Part shown: positions 7,522 to 54,377 of the stretch, piece after piece | How positions within the stretch are numbered: position 1 is the stretch's first letter | Layout of the letters: every line of letters begins with the position of its first letter | Assembly: GCA_944325875.1 (NCBI GenBank) | Contig: CALVBU010000002.1 | Location: forward strand, 62,001-126,000 | Source of the DNA: Candidatus Gastranaerophilales bacterium | GTDB lineage: Bacteria > Cyanobacteriota > Vampirovibrionia > Gastranaerophilales > Gastranaerophilaceae | Length of the DNA stretch: 64,000 nucleotides | Reading direction: 5' to 3' | Notes under the pieces: generated by a model | What the model was told of the DNA's origin: nothing | The model's input: only the letters and a program-made list of their open reading frames with translations | Databases searched by the model: none | Position numbers and translations under genes: made by a program

Positions 7522-8241
7522 TCAATAGTTCATTTTCCAGCCTTCTTCAATAATTCTTCCAGCACAATTGTGGCTATATTGAAAGCTCATCGGAGAAAAG
7601 TTATCTTCTTTACAACACCCCCTACACTCTTTCCAATAAGGAAAATCTGTACAATTTGTTTTTTTACATAATTCACTACCACCAGGAACCAGATAGGGTG
7701 GAGTTAGGATAACAGCAAAATAAAAAATATCCCTTCCATACAAGTTAGGACCATTATAGCCATTTACATCTATATAAAAATTTCCCTGAATATCTCGCGC
7801 AGATGAATAACCAATTGGAAAAAAGTAAAAATTATAAAGGAATGCTCCATTTGGAAGAATAAACGCAGAACCAGAATAAACTGTTTTTTCAGAAGGATTT
7901 AAAAGTTTTTTTGAATAGCTGTAATTATTTAATTCTACAAGTTCACCTTTCAAATATTTTCGCAAATTTATAAAAAAATTTTTACACCTATCATCTTTTA
8001 AACTTAGAGCACTTCCACATCCAGCACCATATAAACTTAAAAAAACATCACTTTCAGCTAAAGTAGTCGGACTCATATTAGAAAAACTATTTAATAAAAT
8101 AGTATAATTAGACTTTAACTGCCCAACCCAAACTATTTTATTATAACCTGAAACCAAATTAGCTAAAATCAAAACTGCTACAACACCTACAATACCCAAA
8201 GTTATAAGTACTTCTGCCAATGTAAAAGCATCTTTTTTCAT
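7522..8241 (-). CDS. Type IV pilin / pseudopilin-like protein
   Basis: The N-terminus is a class III (prepilin peptidase) signal: KKDA followed by FTLAEVLITLGIVG, with glutamate at mature position 5 and a long hydrophobic helix. The rest (to residue 239) is a soluble domain with six or more cysteines near the C-terminus and a DVNG...GPN...GRDIFYF segment, which is shared with the gene at 53631. The start is set by GGAGG 4 nt before the ATG. It is one of three dispersed paralogues here, with no assembly ATPase or peptidase nearby. It could be a minor pilin, a type II secretion pseudopilin or a substrate of such a system. Confidence 0.85.
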   Translation of the reverse strand: MKKDAFTLAEVLITLGIVGVVAVLILANLVSGYNKIVWVGQLKSNYTILLNSFSNMSPTTLAESDVFLSLYGAGCGSALSLKDDRCKNFFINLRKYLKGELVELNNYSYSKKLLNPSEKTVYSGSAFILPNGAFLYNFYFFPIGYSSARDIQGNFYIDVNGYNGPNLYGRDIFYFAVILTPPYLVPGGSELCKKTNCTDFPYWKECRGCCKEDNFSPMSFQYSHNCAGRIIEEGWKMNY

Positions 8242-11022: not shown

Positions 11023-12714
11023 CTATGCGTTATACCGCTTAAAGGTTTTCTCAATATTTTTATCGATTACCGACTTGACGGTATCATATTCTGTTGTTAA
11101 TGAAGATATTTCAGTATCTAAATTCTTCATCTTCATATCAAGGATATTTTCTTTTGCATTAATTTTTTGTTTTTCTCTGTTGTACTTAGCTTCTGCTTGC
11201 GCAACTGCTTCTTCATCTGTAACCTCTTTTACATAAGTATTAGTTGAATAGTTACCTTGATAATAATATCCATCATCAGCTAATGTAGACATATACATAG
11301 CACCCGATTTCAACATTTCTTCGAGATATTCATTATCACTGATTTTATCATTTTCAGTCCAACCATTTAAGCAAATTTGGTTAAACAACGCATCATAGAA
11401 TCCTGCAACAAGAAGGTTATCACCTGAAGTATCTACATCTGTTACATACGTAAACGTAAACATATCGTCAACAAAGTTAGATTGTTCTCTTAATTTTTCT
11501 ACGCTGTAATCAGAGTTTGAAATACCTTCCATATATTGCGCAAAATAAGTTAAATATGCCTGTGCCATATATGAAATATTTAAACCATAACCATCGTTAT
11601 ACTTGCCTTCATTTTCACGGGCACTGTTCTCAATGTATACGATACCGACATAGTTGTTAATATTTTTATCAACCTCTTTCATTACAGTATCAGTTTTATT
11701 ATTACCGCCAAAAAGATGACTGCCTAATTTTTTCCAATAAGAGAAATTTGAATAGTCTACGTTACCACCATCATCTGCATTTGCTCTTTCGCCAAGGAGT
11801 TCAACTGTTTCCATAATCTTGCTACTTGCATATTCTAATGCTGCCTGAGTATAGGAATCTCCTGTATCCAACAGACTTTCAACGCCCTCAAACATACTAC
11901 TCCATAGAGTACTACTGCCGATTAGGTCAACAAGAAGTTCCCAAGACTTGAATTCTCTGCCATCATCTTCACCTTGGTGGTCAGCAGAACCTCTAATTGC
12001 ATAGTTACCAGACAATATATCTTTTAAAGAAATTTTATCAGGTGGATCTTCTATTTTATGATAGTTAGTTATTTCACCTGTAGCTTCATCTCTGTCAGAT
12101 TCATATAATTCAAACCAAGCACCTTGGCCGCCATTATAGTTATGTTGACCTAAAATATCACTTAAATCAAAAGTGACAGTATCTAACATATCAACTAATT
12201 CTGAATAAGAACATTCTTGAGTGTTTACAGTAACCAAATCTCCAGATCCAACACCTGCAATTTGGTTATATGTTGTTTTCTTGATATTTTCACCTTGAAC
12301 TTGACTGATAACATCATTTGCCATCAAACCATCAATAAAGGCATTTCTCATATCTGAAGATGGCAAGCCATCCATACCTTCTTGAGGAATACCTGCTGCT
12401 TTTGCCGCACGAGCAAGCTCAGGAGTCAAAACAACTCTGCCACTCTTATCAGTAATAGTTGTTGGGATATAATCATTTAATGCCGATGGTGACATTAATA
12501 AATTATAAGACAATGGATTAACTTGAGAATTGTTACCGTAAAAATCGTAAATTAATTTTGTCTGATTAATAGCATCCTGATATTCCGCAGATACTTGATC
12601 CATATCACGGGACAAAGCAATTTTCTGGTGCGATAATCTCATAGATTCATATTCGCAATCAGATTTTCTTGCGGTTATGGTTAATAATCTAGCTTGTGAT
12701 GCTGATAATCCCAT
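11023..12714 (-). CDS. Large helical-ended protein of unknown function (sigma-28-like promoter)
   Basis: Not recognised. The 563-residue product has no Sec signal. Its N-terminus (MGLSASQARLLTITARKSD and following) is a long amphipathic helix, the middle is an acidic, Y/N/D/S-rich globular part, and residues about 470-563 form a charged coiled coil (KYNREKQKINAKENILDMK and on). Helices at both ends around a globular centre recall flagellar axial or filament-type proteins, but no homology is claimed. A TAAAGTTT-N12-TCCGTATT element lies 54-81 nt upstream. AAAGGA precedes the start. Confidence 0.8.
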   Translation of the reverse strand: MGLSASQARLLTITARKSDCEYESMRLSHQKIALSRDMDQVSAEYQDAINQTKLIYDFYGNNSQVNPLSYNLLMSPSALNDYIPTTITDKSGRVVLTPELARAAKAAGIPQEGMDGLPSSDMRNAFIDGLMANDVISQVQGENIKKTTYNQIAGVGSGDLVTVNTQECSYSELVDMLDTVTFDLSDILGQHNYNGGQGAWFELYESDRDEATGEITNYHKIEDPPDKISLKDILSGNYAIRGSADHQGEDDGREFKSWELLVDLIGSSTLWSSMFEGVESLLDTGDSYTQAALEYASSKIMETVELLGERANADDGGNVDYSNFSYWKKLGSHLFGGNNKTDTVMKEVDKNINNYVGIVYIENSARENEGKYNDGYGLNISYMAQAYLTYFAQYMEGISNSDYSVEKLREQSNFVDDMFTFTYVTDVDTSGDNLLVAGFYDALFNQICLNGWTENDKISDNEYLEEMLKSGAMYMSTLADDGYYYQGNYSTNTYVKEVTDEEAVAQAEAKYNREKQKINAKENILDMKMKNLDTEISSLTTEYDTVKSVIDKNIEKTFKRYNA

Positions 12715-12767: not shown

Positions 12768-12795
12768 AATACGGATTTTAAGCTCACAAACTTTA
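12768..12795 (-). promoter_or_regulatory. Sigma-28-like promoter of the 563-residue protein
   Basis: TAAAGTTT (12795-12788), 12 nt, then TCCGTATT (12775-12768). This resembles the TAAA-N14-16-GCCGATAT pattern known for sigma-28/sigma-D, with mismatches in the -10. It is the weakest of the three such elements here. Confidence 0.4.
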
Positions 12796-16260: not shown

Positions 16261-16308
16261 ATAACGGTAATTTTTAAAGTTTACAAAAAAGTTGCCGTTA
16301 TTTTATTT
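16261..16308 (+). terminator. Possible upp terminator overlapping a promoter
   Basis: ATAACGGTAA (16261-16270) can pair with TTGCCGTTAT (16292-16301) with one mismatch, followed by a T-rich tract. The same bases hold the sigma-28-like element of the next gene, so both roles are possible. Confidence 0.45.
16275..16301 (+). promoter_or_regulatory. Sigma-28-like promoter of the LysM-amidase operon
   Basis: TAAAGTTT (16275-16282), 11 nt, GCCGTTAT (16294-16301): this fits TAAA-N15-GCCGATAA with one or two changes. Predicted start near 16308 gives a leader of about 28 nt containing AAAGGAA, a sensible arrangement. Confidence 0.5.
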
Positions 16309-16335: not shown

Positions 16336-18177
16336 ATGGTATTTAGAATTGAAAATACATCAAGTAAAAGCGTAATAAAAACTAGTGAAAAAGATAACCT
16401 AGAGCAACTAAAACGTGAAGCAAAAGCAAAAGGAGAGTTTATTGTAACAGTCAGTTCAGATGACAAGACCTTGAGTGCTATTGCCAGAAAATTTAATATG
16501 TCCTTAACTGACTTCAAAAATATGACAGGCCTAACTAAAGACACATTACAAAAAGGGCAAGTTATAAAAAATATTCCAACCGCTAAAATTGAATCCGGTA
16601 TGGGAATAGCTTCAGTTGCAAAAAAACACGGTATGACCATAGAACAATTTTGCACATTAAATAATATAGATAAGAATTACAAACCGCAAAAAGGTGAATA
16701 TTTTTATGTATTTCCTAAGCAAAAACAAGGTAATGCATCAAAGTCAGAAGCCAAGCCAAAACCTGAGCCGACTCCAGAACCAAAGCCGGAGCCAAAACCT
16801 GTAGAACAAAAACTTAATGCAGAAGAAATTGCAGACAAATTAGAACAAGCAGCAAGCGACTATAGAGGAGCTGTTGGAAAAGAAGAATTTAATAATGTTT
16901 TCAAACAAATTAATAAAAATAACGTTATAGATGTTGTTAATAATTTTCAAGAAAAACAAGGCAAAAGTTTAATTAATATGATTTCCGATGAATGGAGCAG
17001 TGACAAAGAAGACAGAAAAGCTGCTATGACAAAGATTTTCGACCTTGTTGCCGAAAAAACCGGAAATAAAAATTCCAAACTAAGAGAAGACTTTATCAAA
17101 GAACTAGATAATGAATTTGATTCTTGGGGTTTTGTTTCAACTAAAAAAATGGACAAAATGATTAACAAAATGATTCACCCAGAAAGTGAAACAGAAATCG
17201 ACACTCCAAAAGATAAAGAAAATGTTCGCGGAAACACCGGCTCAAATGCATTACATTTAAGCGGAAAAGTTTATCCAAATGAGATATTCTATTCAACTAA
17301 CGGAGGACGAAGTAAAGACATTACGCCTGAAACTAAGACTTCAATAAGAGACAAAGACGGCAACTTAGTTAATGCAGGAACTTTGAAATCTTGGGCTCTT
17401 AGCGGAGGTAAAAGAGATAAAGGCTTTAAAGACGTTAAAGATCCTTTTATCGTAAGACCTTTACCAAACTATAATACTGAAACAAAAAAAATTGAAGCTG
17501 TAACTGAATTGCTTGAGCCAACAGGTAAAGGTAATTTGGACGGCAAATTAATAATTCTAAATCCTGGACATGGCGGATATCAACAAGCAAACGGATACTT
17601 TGATGCAGGAACAGTTCTTTCTGTCAAAAATGCCGAAGGTGAAGAAATGCCAATTGAAGAATGGCGTGTTGCACAAAGTTACGTCGAAAAAATTTCAGAC
17701 AATTTAAGAAACAGAGGAGCACAAGTAATTATCGTTTCAGGAGCAGTTAGAAACGGAGGAATGTCCGCTCAAAAATATATTGAAAACATGCTGGCAGGAA
17801 AAAAAGGTGATGATTCTGTCAGAGAGGTAATAAAAGATACCGATAAGTCTGATATGTTATTTTTGTCAGTACACGTTGAATCCGCAAAAGAAAGTCCTGA
17901 TACAAAAAAATGTACAGTTCGCTATACAAAAGATATTGATAAAGAACTTGCTAATAACATCAACAAATATGTAAATCAAGGATTTACAGCTCTAACACCA
18001 AAATCGACACCTGATAATCTTTACGTAAATAGAGCGGCAAAAGGTATCCCATCATCGTTACTGGAAATTGGCAACATCGCTAATGATAAAATCACTAATT
18101 CACTTTTATCTGATTACGATCAGAAAAAATATGCAGAATGTATTGCTAATGCAATTGAAGACACAATGATTAACTAA
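16336..18177 (+). CDS. LysM-domain N-acetylmuramoyl-L-alanine amidase with annexin-like middle segment
   Basis: Peptidoglycan hydrolase. Two LysM-like modules lie at about residues 35-82 and 84-127, then a P/E/K linker (138-158). Residues about 163-240 resemble an annexin repeat (GAVGKEEF, NNVIDVVNNFQEKQGKS, LINMISDEWS). The Amidase_3 domain spans about 400-610, with H412 in NPGHGG, E in PIEEW (about 441-442), H513 in SVHVES and the catalytic glutamate in LLEIGN. There is no Sec signal although the substrate is outside the membrane. It is the first gene of an operon with the lysozyme-like gene 11 nt downstream. Confidence 0.88.
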   Translation: MVFRIENTSSKSVIKTSEKDNLEQLKREAKAKGEFIVTVSSDDKTLSAIARKFNMSLTDFKNMTGLTKDTLQKGQVIKNIPTAKIESGMGIASVAKKHGMTIEQFCTLNNIDKNYKPQKGEYFYVFPKQKQGNASKSEAKPKPEPTPEPKPEPKPVEQKLNAEEIADKLEQAASDYRGAVGKEEFNNVFKQINKNNVIDVVNNFQEKQGKSLINMISDEWSSDKEDRKAAMTKIFDLVAEKTGNKNSKLREDFIKELDNEFDSWGFVSTKKMDKMINKMIHPESETEIDTPKDKENVRGNTGSNALHLSGKVYPNEIFYSTNGGRSKDITPETKTSIRDKDGNLVNAGTLKSWALSGGKRDKGFKDVKDPFIVRPLPNYNTETKKIEAVTELLEPTGKGNLDGKLIILNPGHGGYQQANGYFDAGTVLSVKNAEGEEMPIEEWRVAQSYVEKISDNLRNRGAQVIIVSGAVRNGGMSAQKYIENMLAGKKGDDSVREVIKDTDKSDMLFLSVHVESAKESPDTKKCTVRYTKDIDKELANNINKYVNQGFTALTPKSTPDNLYVNRAAKGIPSSLLEIGNIANDKITNSLLSDYDQKKYAECIANAIEDTMIN

Positions 18178-28622: not shown

Positions 28623-29363
28623 ATGAAAAAAGCTTTTACTCTTGCTGAAGTTTTAATAACACTTGGCATAATCGGGATAATCGCAGCTTTAACAATACCT
28701 AATATTATAGCTGGGTACAGAAAAAAAGTAGTAGAAACTGAATTAAAAAAAGCTTTTTCTGTATCTTCACAAGTCATCAAACTTTCAGAAGCATTTAACG
28801 AAAGTGCATTGTACTGGAAATATCCGACTGAAGGAAGTGGAACTTCTAGCTTAGGTACACAAGAAGCTATACAATTCAGTGAAAAATATATTAAGCCTTA
28901 TTTAAAATATTCATCAGCAGACAAAAAGAATCGAAAGGTTTTTTATTCAGACGGAACCACTTCATACCTAACCAATTATATAAATAAAAATCTAGGTTTT
29001 ATCCTTCCAGACGGGATCTTTCTACAATTCTCCCCACTTGCAGAAAAGAATCATGATAGAGGATATGTAATACTTATATATGCTGGAACAACAAATAAAT
29101 CTAAATCAAAAGAATTTATCGAAGGACAGAATTTTTTTACATTTACAGTAAACACTAATAATAATATTGGCAAAGTTAGTTTGGAACCACAATGGTATTT
29201 AAACTGGTCTTGTCAAAAATTAAAAGAAAATCCGACTACTTTTATTGAAAATTGTAGAAAAAACACAAGAGAAACCAGCGGAGTTTCATCTTCAGTATAT
29301 TGCACATACATGATATACTGCAATAACTGGGAAGTTCCTGATAATTATCCTATCAAATTTTAG
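28623..29363 (+). CDS. Type IV pilin / pseudopilin-like protein
   Basis: Class III signal MKKA then FTLAEVLITLGIIGIIAAL, 246 residues. The N-terminal 55 residues are close to the other two paralogues (7522, 53631), but the DVNG...GxDxF segment they share is replaced by a K/S-rich stretch ending GQNFFTFTV. C-terminal cysteines suggest disulfides. GGAGG lies 4 nt before the ATG. Its stop is 1 nt from the convergent cysS stop. Confidence 0.85.
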   Translation: MKKAFTLAEVLITLGIIGIIAALTIPNIIAGYRKKVVETELKKAFSVSSQVIKLSEAFNESALYWKYPTEGSGTSSLGTQEAIQFSEKYIKPYLKYSSADKKNRKVFYSDGTTSYLTNYINKNLGFILPDGIFLQFSPLAEKNHDRGYVILIYAGTTNKSKSKEFIEGQNFFTFTVNTNNNIGKVSLEPQWYLNWSCQKLKENPTTFIENCRKNTRETSGVSSSVYCTYMIYCNNWEVPDNYPIKF

Positions 29364-52185: not shown

Positions 52186-52213
52186 TAAAGTTTACACACA
52201 CCCAAGCCGATAT
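52186..52213 (+). promoter_or_regulatory. Sigma-28/sigma-D-like promoter
   Basis: TAAAGTTT (52186-52193), 12 nt, GCCGATAT (52206-52213). This matches the sigma-D pattern TAAA-N14-16-GCCGATAT exactly. Predicted start near 52220 leaves a leader of about 30 nt with AAAGGG. Confidence 0.6.
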
Positions 52214-52250: not shown

Positions 52251-52754
52251 ATGGCATTAAGTGTTTCACAAAGTATTAATAATTTAGGAATAGATAGAGC
52301 TACCTTAAATCAGGTATCTCAAGAAATTCTTAAACGTGCAGCTGAAAAAAACAGTCAGTACAAAACTGCTGATAATGTAAATTTCTTTCAGCCACGTGAC
52401 CTTGGTATAGATCTCTATAATAATAAAATTGATACTAATACTCAAAAACAAATTGCATTGAACAATTCAGGACTTCAAATTCAATTAAGCCAAGAAGCAA
52501 TGAATGCAATTCACACATTAAATACAAAAGCAGCTCAAAATGTTCAAAAGAACGTTGAAGGCAAAATGACTATAGCAGTAAATGAAATTACAATACAAGA
52601 ACAAAAAAATCCAACACCAAGATTTAACAGCTTGGTAAGTATGGGTACAAGCAAAGACAAAAATGGCTCAAACCCATTCTATCATGGCGAATTATTAATG
52701 AACGGCTCTAAGAAAGAAGAAAACCAAGAAGATAAAAAATCTATCTTCGCTTAA
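52251..52754 (+). CDS. Uncharacterised signal-less protein under a sigma-28-like promoter
   Basis: 167 residues, not recognised. N-terminus MALSVSQSINNLGIDRATL is a polar amphipathic helix, similar in flavour to the 11023 protein's MGLSASQARLL. The body is N/Q/K-rich and helical with no membrane segment. Its stop overlaps that of the convergent gene at 52751. Could be a secreted structural or chaperone-like protein; that is a guess from promoter type only. Confidence 0.75.
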   Translation: MALSVSQSINNLGIDRATLNQVSQEILKRAAEKNSQYKTADNVNFFQPRDLGIDLYNNKIDTNTQKQIALNNSGLQIQLSQEAMNAIHTLNTKAAQNVQKNVEGKMTIAVNEITIQEQKNPTPRFNSLVSMGTSKDKNGSNPFYHGELLMNGSKKEENQEDKKSIFA

Positions 52755-53630: not shown

Positions 53631-54377
53631 TTACTTGCATTTTGTCTTACCTGTCCAACTAAGGTCATTGCACCTTAAGTATTCCATATTTTCATTCGCT
53701 AAAACCCACGCTGCACAATCATAACCTGAAGAATTAAGCCTACACTCTGTATTAGCTAAAGGAACATTATTTTTTTGATAATTATATGGGTATATCCTGT
53801 CTTTAGTATAAAAAAATAAAAATAAATCTTTCCCAACAATATTCGGGTTTTTATTTCCATTAACATCAACCCAAATTTCTCCGTATTTACTTTTCTCGTC
53901 ACCATCGTCAGGTGTATACCCTTCAATGGCAAGAGCCATTCCATCGGCTAATATCAATTTGTAATATTGATTATTTAAATTTTCAAAATTTCTTTCTGCT
54001 AAACCATCTAATCTTTTATATCCATTTAAAATAAAACAACCTTCAGATTTATATTTACAATCTTTAGCTATTTTTAATTGCTTAATTAAATTATAAGACT
54101 CATATCTACTTATTGTACCTTCTTTATCCCCACCTGACTCAACAGAATCTCCAGCTGAATCATAAGTATATATATTCCAAGTATTTACTGGACCATTTTC
54201 ATTCACAGCGGACATCATTGCTTGCGAAAGTATACTATAAGCTTTTTTTAGTTTAGTAATTGTAACTTTTTCTTGCTGCTTTTGAACTAATGTAGGCAAT
54301 GTCATAGCAGCTACTATTCCAATGACTCCTAACGTAATTAATACTTCTGCTAAAGTAAAAGCGTTTCTCTTTTTCAT
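53631..54377 (-). CDS. Type IV pilin / pseudopilin-like protein
   Basis: 248 residues. Class III signal MKKRNA then FTLAEVLITLGVIGIVAAM. The C-terminal domain has VDVNGNKNPNIVGKDLFLFF, shared with the 7522 paralogue, and four cysteines near the end. GGAGG is 4 nt before the ATG. About 150 bp upstream on the same strand lies a short ORF with a G11 tract and the same type of leader. Confidence 0.85.
   Translation of the reverse strand: MKKRNAFTLAEVLITLGVIGIVAAMTLPTLVQKQQEKVTITKLKKAYSILSQAMMSAVNENGPVNTWNIYTYDSAGDSVESGGDKEGTISRYESYNLIKQLKIAKDCKYKSEGCFILNGYKRLDGLAERNFENLNNQYYKLILADGMALAIEGYTPDDGDEKSKYGEIWVDVNGNKNPNIVGKDLFLFFYTKDRIYPYNYQKNNVPLANTECRLNSSGYDCAAWVLANENMEYLRCNDLSWTGKTKCK

Follow-up and report, generated by a model that had tools for sequence, protein, structure and literature searches.

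What kind of protein has long conserved helices at both ends, lies behind a flagellar-type late promoter and belongs to a bacterium in whose genome no flagellin is detected? The question is raised by P0001, a 563-residue protein encoded on the minus strand at 11023..12714 of a 64,000-nucleotide stretch (hereafter the window) from a Candidatus Gastranaerophilales bacterium (assembly GCA_944325875.1, contig CALVBU010000002.1, positions 62,001 to 126,000). A preliminary description, made from the letters alone, had likened its layout to that of flagellar axial proteins and type III translocators. On balance, and with reservations set out below, we favor the explanation that P0001 and its relatives are late-class substrates of a separate flagellum-derived type III system, probably its axial or surface subunits, with a recombining core that would face outward.

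The reading frame is uninterrupted from its ATG at 12714, while the plus strand across the same interval contains many stops. The helix-core-helix layout was borne out by an AlphaFold2 model from a 45-row alignment (mean predicted local distance difference test, pLDDT, 79.9; predicted template modeling score, pTM, 0.48), with a conserved N-terminal helix at residues 2-49 (12568..12711, minus strand), a mixed core at residues 50-500 (11215..12567, minus strand) and a conserved C-terminal coiled-coil helix at residues 501-562 (11029..11214, minus strand), the last also captured by the C-terminal profile A3. Column identity in the 45-row alignment (A5) is 0.79 for residues 1-50, falls to 0.31-0.36 for residues 131-400 and returns to 0.79 for residues 501-563, a pattern that, as far as an alignment can tell, is of the kind known from flagellins. 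Both helices had been described beforehand, the first as amphipathic and the second as a long coiled coil. By hydrophobic moment, the C-terminal helix is amphipathic (its value is reached by 2% of shuffles) and the N-terminal helix is not (75%), so that the first helix itself stands but its amphipathicity does not. The protein has no hydrophobic segment, the best 19-residue Kyte-Doolittle mean being only 1.06, in agreement with the proposed absence of a signal peptide.

The fold search recommended in the preliminary description had a positive, though qualified, outcome. VIA-align was run on 994 chains ranked by Foldseek with the whole P0001 model as the query, and its top row was the Azotobacter flagellar filament (Z 9.0, 2.6 Å, 106 residues within P0001 1..555). 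Further rows were the MukB elbow (Z 8.9), the Achromobacter and E. coli O157 filaments (Z 8.8) and the antiparallel coiled coil of seryl-tRNA synthetase (Z 8.8, 0.8 Å, 75 residues within P0001 1..556). Because these alignments cover both ends simultaneously, the terminal helices are predicted to pair. In the model, the likeness to flagellin appears no stronger than the likeness to any antiparallel coiled coil. Foldseek returned nothing at E<=0.001 for either the whole or the core model. The variable core modeled alone (pLDDT 82.2, pTM 0.58) found no confident fold match: its best VIA-align rows, at most Z 4.6, were mostly class II synthetase-like sheets, which we do not credit. Pfam and NCBIfam searches with P0001, nine relatives from the same genome (two of them partial) and nine short members (three of the latter in NCBIfam) gave only coiled-coil noise and, once, GLUG repeats, and no PDB sequence came below E 0.01 with A5 or A6 as the query. 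The sequence was therefore rightly said to match no known flagellin, hook-associated protein or translocator, and by these searches the P0001 family is a new one, unmatched in Pfam, NCBIfam and PDB.

The promoter is of a flagellar type. A sigma-28-type element, TAAAG-N15-TCCGTAT (12769..12795, minus strand), starts 81 bases before the P0001 ATG and scores 10 of 12 points against the consensus TAAAG-N13..15-GCCGTAA or GCCGATA. Scores of at least 10 were found in 29 of 30 upstream regions of P0001 orthologues, compared with 2.4% of Markov-shuffled ones, which upholds the sigma-28-like promoter first noticed by eye, and in 8 of 10 regions preceding family starts in the host genome. A strict scan (score at least 11, spacing 15) of 277 kb of host DNA enriched for family loci returned 13 sites, five inside open reading frames (ORFs) and eight intergenic; seven of the latter precede family starts and one precedes the gene at 52251 described below. 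Outside the host's own taxonomic family, 10 of 30 upstream regions reached a score of 10 (background 2.3%), most clearly at loci of families f3, f4, f6, f7 and f15, the element being mostly absent in f9 and f14. The cognate sigma factor FliA is encoded in the host genome (247.3 bits against a cut-off of 189.6), and Flagellin_N (PF00669) has no match there at E<=1 and none beyond noise in P0001.

The same genome (2.2 Mb, 41 contigs, 99.96% complete) encodes the export machinery whose co-occurrence had been proposed as a check. We found full-length FlhA, FliP, FliH, YscJ/FliF, FliE and a FliI-type ATPase, the FlhA and FliP matches being free of internal stops, and FliQ, FliR, FliO and a FliMN-domain protein located 2-6 kb upstream of the window. 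Rod-type proteins are represented by FlgC and two proteins of FlgE/F/G type, with FlgC and FlgE/F/G-type matches over the cut-off, and by a third FlgE/F/G-type protein; a FlgB-like protein is recognized by position and PF00460, and an ORF in the fliG position has no Pfam match. In three genomes (the host's, G063 and G031), the gene run fliE-fliF-x-fliH-flhA has a family member, a 270-272-residue protein and a 108-residue hairpin at a distance of 2-7 kb; in G015, G007 and G006, rod genes stand upstream of fliE in one gene run, with names assigned by position and likeness. As a separate observation, a 492-residue ORF (C8:13472-14950, locus L026) corresponds to FlhA in the cytosolic domain alone (168.5 bits, profile 315-653), and matches of this type (about 150-170 bits) occur in 15 of 15 genomes of the host's family in the class sample; such a protein might serve as a docking platform that lacks the membrane part. 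A glycine-rich protein of 272 or 293 residues with a moderately hydrophobic middle also adjoins family members (C3:173482-174300, locus L025, and L167:815-1693). Its C-terminus weakly resembles the family signature (14.8 bits in the 270-residue G031 copy and 16.5 bits in the G010 copy), and our guess is that it is translocator-like.

The distribution of FlhA suggests that this machinery is distinct from an ordinary flagellum. FHIPEP (FlhA/SctV) matches occur in each of the 117 genomes sampled from the order and in 55 of 69 genomes of the class sample (54 over the cut-off), with none over the cut-off in families f8 (12/12 genomes) and f13 (2/2). Flagellar-type FlhA (matches of about 857-891 bits, counted by hand) is present in 40 of the 117 genomes of the order, and the other 77 carry the P0001 family without it. 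In a tree of 42 FlhA/SctV sequences, including three SctV references and no Myxococcales sequence, the SctV references (support 100/100), the flagellar FlhAs of the class (99/97) and a second, type 2 clade (100/100) are separated, and the flagellar and type 2 proteins stand side by side in genomes G007, G012, G015, G123, G142, G147 and G162. Type 2 falls outside the SctV clade, to which the FlhA homologue of a non-flagellar type III system would belong, and it joins the other FlhAs on a long branch with weak support (81/80). It splits into 2a, from the families with hairpins (100/100), and 2b, from f10, f11 and f12 (100/99); the ten f10-f12 sequences in the tree comprise seven of type 2b and three flagellar ones.

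Profile A3 matches 117 of 117 sampled Gastranaerophilales genomes and 30 of the 69 in the class sample: 15/15 in the host's own family (host included), 9/9 in f9, 4/4 in f14 and 2/2 in f15. It matches none of the genomes of f8 (12), f10 (9), f11 (5), f12 (11) and f13 (2). All 30 positive genomes have a second-type FlhA match (profile 2-656), compared with 0 of the 39 negative ones among the matches listed. Because the A3 pattern across families coincides with 2a in the FlhA tree, the hairpin family tracks clade 2a. A search of 15 genomes outside the host's family, picked because earlier searches had matched them, was positive in all 15. As far as sampled, the P0001 family is confined to part of the class Vampirovibrionia and goes with an apparently separate flagellum-derived export system; the finding as a whole exceeds what chance would give. 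Eight contigs labeled viral in IMG/VR (loci L217-L224) also encode P0001 relatives, at loci of which six extend to the contig end; we take these contigs as probably mislabeled bacterial fragments and set a phage origin of the family aside. Named relatives of the protein place the host in Gastranaerophilales; some loci of relatives are titled Brachyspira, Fusobacterium or Clostridiaceae, which we take as mis-named bins.

Members of the family differ greatly in size. All 16 members recovered with both ends from f9, f14 and f15, outside the order, are bare hairpins of 109-114 residues; 13 members from other families of the order have 95-360 residues, and 74 members from named Gastranaerophilales records, which were selected for their resemblance to P0001, have 373-772. 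The inserts sit at the hairpin tip and were probably gained within the order. The 108-residue protein of the host's export locus is a divergent hairpin (E 2.5e-19 against the short-family profile in a profile comparison). Nine short members gave no needle-family Pfam row and no PDB sequence match, in searches by which short helical families are easily missed.

In the host genome, a search for P0001 relatives gave 21 matches, and profile A3 counts 13. The genome holds nine complete insert-bearing members of 332-676 residues, fragments and the 108-residue hairpin. The members can be aligned throughout in their first 60 and last ~75 residues, whereas among the nine middles only m1/m2 (P0001/C10) and m3/m5/m6 match at E<=1e-3. 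Over their 3' ~690 bases, two fragmentary members are 97% identical in DNA to a third; one of the two shows just 42-52% identity over most of the ~600 bases upstream, and this sharp switch reads as gene conversion or domain exchange. Contig ends fall inside family members in 5 of 82 cases, where about 0.9 would be expected (P ~0.002 for an assumed family length of 24 kb). Such breaks point to near-identical repeats, and the copy number is therefore uncertain in draft genomes. The breaks are at C4:1, C8:1, C17:1, C23:1 and C23:8825. One member (C1:48791-50821, locus L030) has an insert with GLUG repeats (Pfam PF07581, E 1e-8), a motif often seen in surface proteins.

We gathered from the sequences a layout, a conservation pattern, a promoter with its FliA, a lack of flagellin matches, export and rod genes and a co-distribution with one FlhA clade; from these we infer export, polymerization, surface display and a role in adhesion or in contact with the host or neighbors. 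The axial-protein-like reading of the preliminary description is supported by the predicted pairing of the end helices and the co-occurrence with type III export genes. The ancestral form was probably a two-helix hairpin of ~109 residues, roughly the size of a needle subunit, into whose tip a globular domain was inserted in Gastranaerophilales, as flagellin D2/D3 lies between paired end helices. In flagella, FliA-dependent late genes are switched on after completion of the rod. By analogy, the family genes would be transcribed by sigma-28 as late genes once the rod is complete, and their products would exit unfolded through the type 2a FlhA gate with FliOPQR, FliHI(J), FliEF and the rod proteins. 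Outside the cell, the end helices would pair again and the products build or decorate an extracellular structure, in which short hairpins would form the shaft and insert-bearing members the exposed part, recombination varying the outer domain.

Could the products instead be effectors or translocators, whose conserved ends are no more than signals for export and chaperone binding and whose cores are separate activities released into host or neighboring cells? The mostly unrelated cores of varied sizes, the member with GLUG repeats and the glycine-rich partner of 270-293 residues, which has a similar C-terminal signature and neighbors either members at the export locus or a short one, would fit such a role. 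Effectors usually have only an N-terminal signal in common, whereas here the C-terminal helix is conserved equally with the N-terminal one (0.79 and 0.79), in distant families the members are nothing more than the two helices, and neither an enzymatic Pfam family nor a confident fold was found. We consider delivery of this kind unlikely, though it is the strongest competitor of the axial or surface subunits that we prefer. Less probable still is a genuine flagellum built from a novel flagellin, in which the family would form a rotating filament on a second basal body. Sigma-28 control, rod and C-ring type proteins, the absence of flagellin and a flagellin-like conservation profile could be explained in this way, but 40 of 117 genomes with an ordinary flagellar-type FlhA also carry the family, about a dozen divergent members together with bare 109-residue ones are unlike a propeller subunit, and published reports (PMC4040986) hold gut forms with incomplete gene sets to be non-motile by inference. 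The least credible alternative has the export genes left over from a lost flagellum and the family made up of cytoplasmic coiled-coil proteins that retained a sigma-28 promoter. It is weakened to the point of being very improbable because decay does not predict a second FlhA that forms a clade of its own, occurs alongside flagellar FlhA within single genomes, has no internal stop in the host (nor has FliP) and is found, like the family, across the order.

Several observations weigh against axial or surface subunits of a separate system. The flagellar-filament Z of 9.0 is equaled by unrelated antiparallel coiled coils and falls short of the ~13 advised by VIA-align for helical folds, and a profile comparison of the hairpin with FliE and FlgC gave no relation. 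FliJ (17.7 bits) and FliK (22.8 bits) fall under their Pfam cut-offs. The promoter consensus was fixed only after the upstream regions had been viewed, members m5 and m8 reach only 9/12, and outside the host's family a score of 10 is missed by 20 of 30 upstream regions. Finally, clade 2b is without detected hairpins, so that either hairpins are not obligate in all type 2 systems or A3 misses divergent ones.

The candidate sigma-28 regulon might extend beyond the family. A perfect 12/12 promoter (52186..52212, plus strand), the remaining intergenic site of the strict scan, precedes a gene for a 167-residue protein of unknown function (52251..52754, plus strand). Its N-terminus had been compared with that of P0001, but it is absent from the family-profile matches at E<=0.01 and is not a homologue by this measure; the shared element is the promoter. 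A possible further regulon member is a 613-residue LysM/amidase-like protein (16336-18177, plus strand; family assigned by eye) without an obvious signal peptide, preceded by a sigma-28-like site at ~16275-16300 (11/12, spacing 14). The window also encodes pseudopilin-like proteins with a near-identical start (FTLAEVLITLGIIGIVAAMTLPTL or close) at 7522-8241, 28623-29363 and 53631-54377, which, with many other loci of the genome, are seen as a large type IV pilin-like family.

How does the system compare with known ones? The P0001 family resembles flagellin (FliC) and axial proteins such as FlgL and FlgK in its conserved end helices, predicted to pair, its variable middle, the lack of a signal peptide and the putative sigma-28 late promoter, and export through an FlhA/FliPQR gate would be a further likeness. 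Unlike flagellin, it has no Flagellin_N match, is multi-copy with mostly unrelated cores and is reduced to bare 109-residue hairpins in distant members. The size and helix-turn-helix plan of these hairpins recall the injectisome needle subunits SctF (MxiH/PrgI family), but there is no Pfam match, the system's FlhA falls outside the SctV clade, and large insert domains occur in Gastranaerophilales. Buchnera retains a flagellar basal body without a filament, for which a role in secretion is proposed (PMC8109811); export gate and rod genes are likewise kept and flagellin lost here, whereas a separate FlhA lineage beside the flagellar one, a candidate substrate family and FliA set the present system apart. 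Myxococcales have flagellum-derived type III systems that lack elements needed for motility (PMC3459982); the system described here is similarly flagellum-derived but retains rod genes, and its FlhA lies outside SctV, in the tree without a Myxococcales sequence.

Such gene sets in Gastranaerophilales have been called remnants of lost flagella in earlier papers, a flagellum reading followed in PMC5877343, PMC4451040 and PMC9029806, and we found no description of a type III secretion system or of the P0001 family in these bacteria among the open-licence papers searched. What has been reported from them as a broken flagellum may be a functioning machine for secretion or surface display that awaits description. 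More tentatively, and at somewhat less than even chances in our judgment, it might represent a third functional type III branch, sigma-28-controlled, flagellum-derived, non-motile and ancient in Vampirovibrionia, whose hairpin exterior became a recombining, surface-variable set in the gut Gastranaerophilales, the decayed flagellum being this very machine. If true, the published inference of a degraded flagellum would be wrong, and the coexistence of flagellar and derived FlhA in the same genomes would document a route for repurposing a flagellum. Bacteria that are widespread in animal guts and for the most part uncultured would then have an undescribed secretion or surface system, with concrete genes and proteins offered for experiment.
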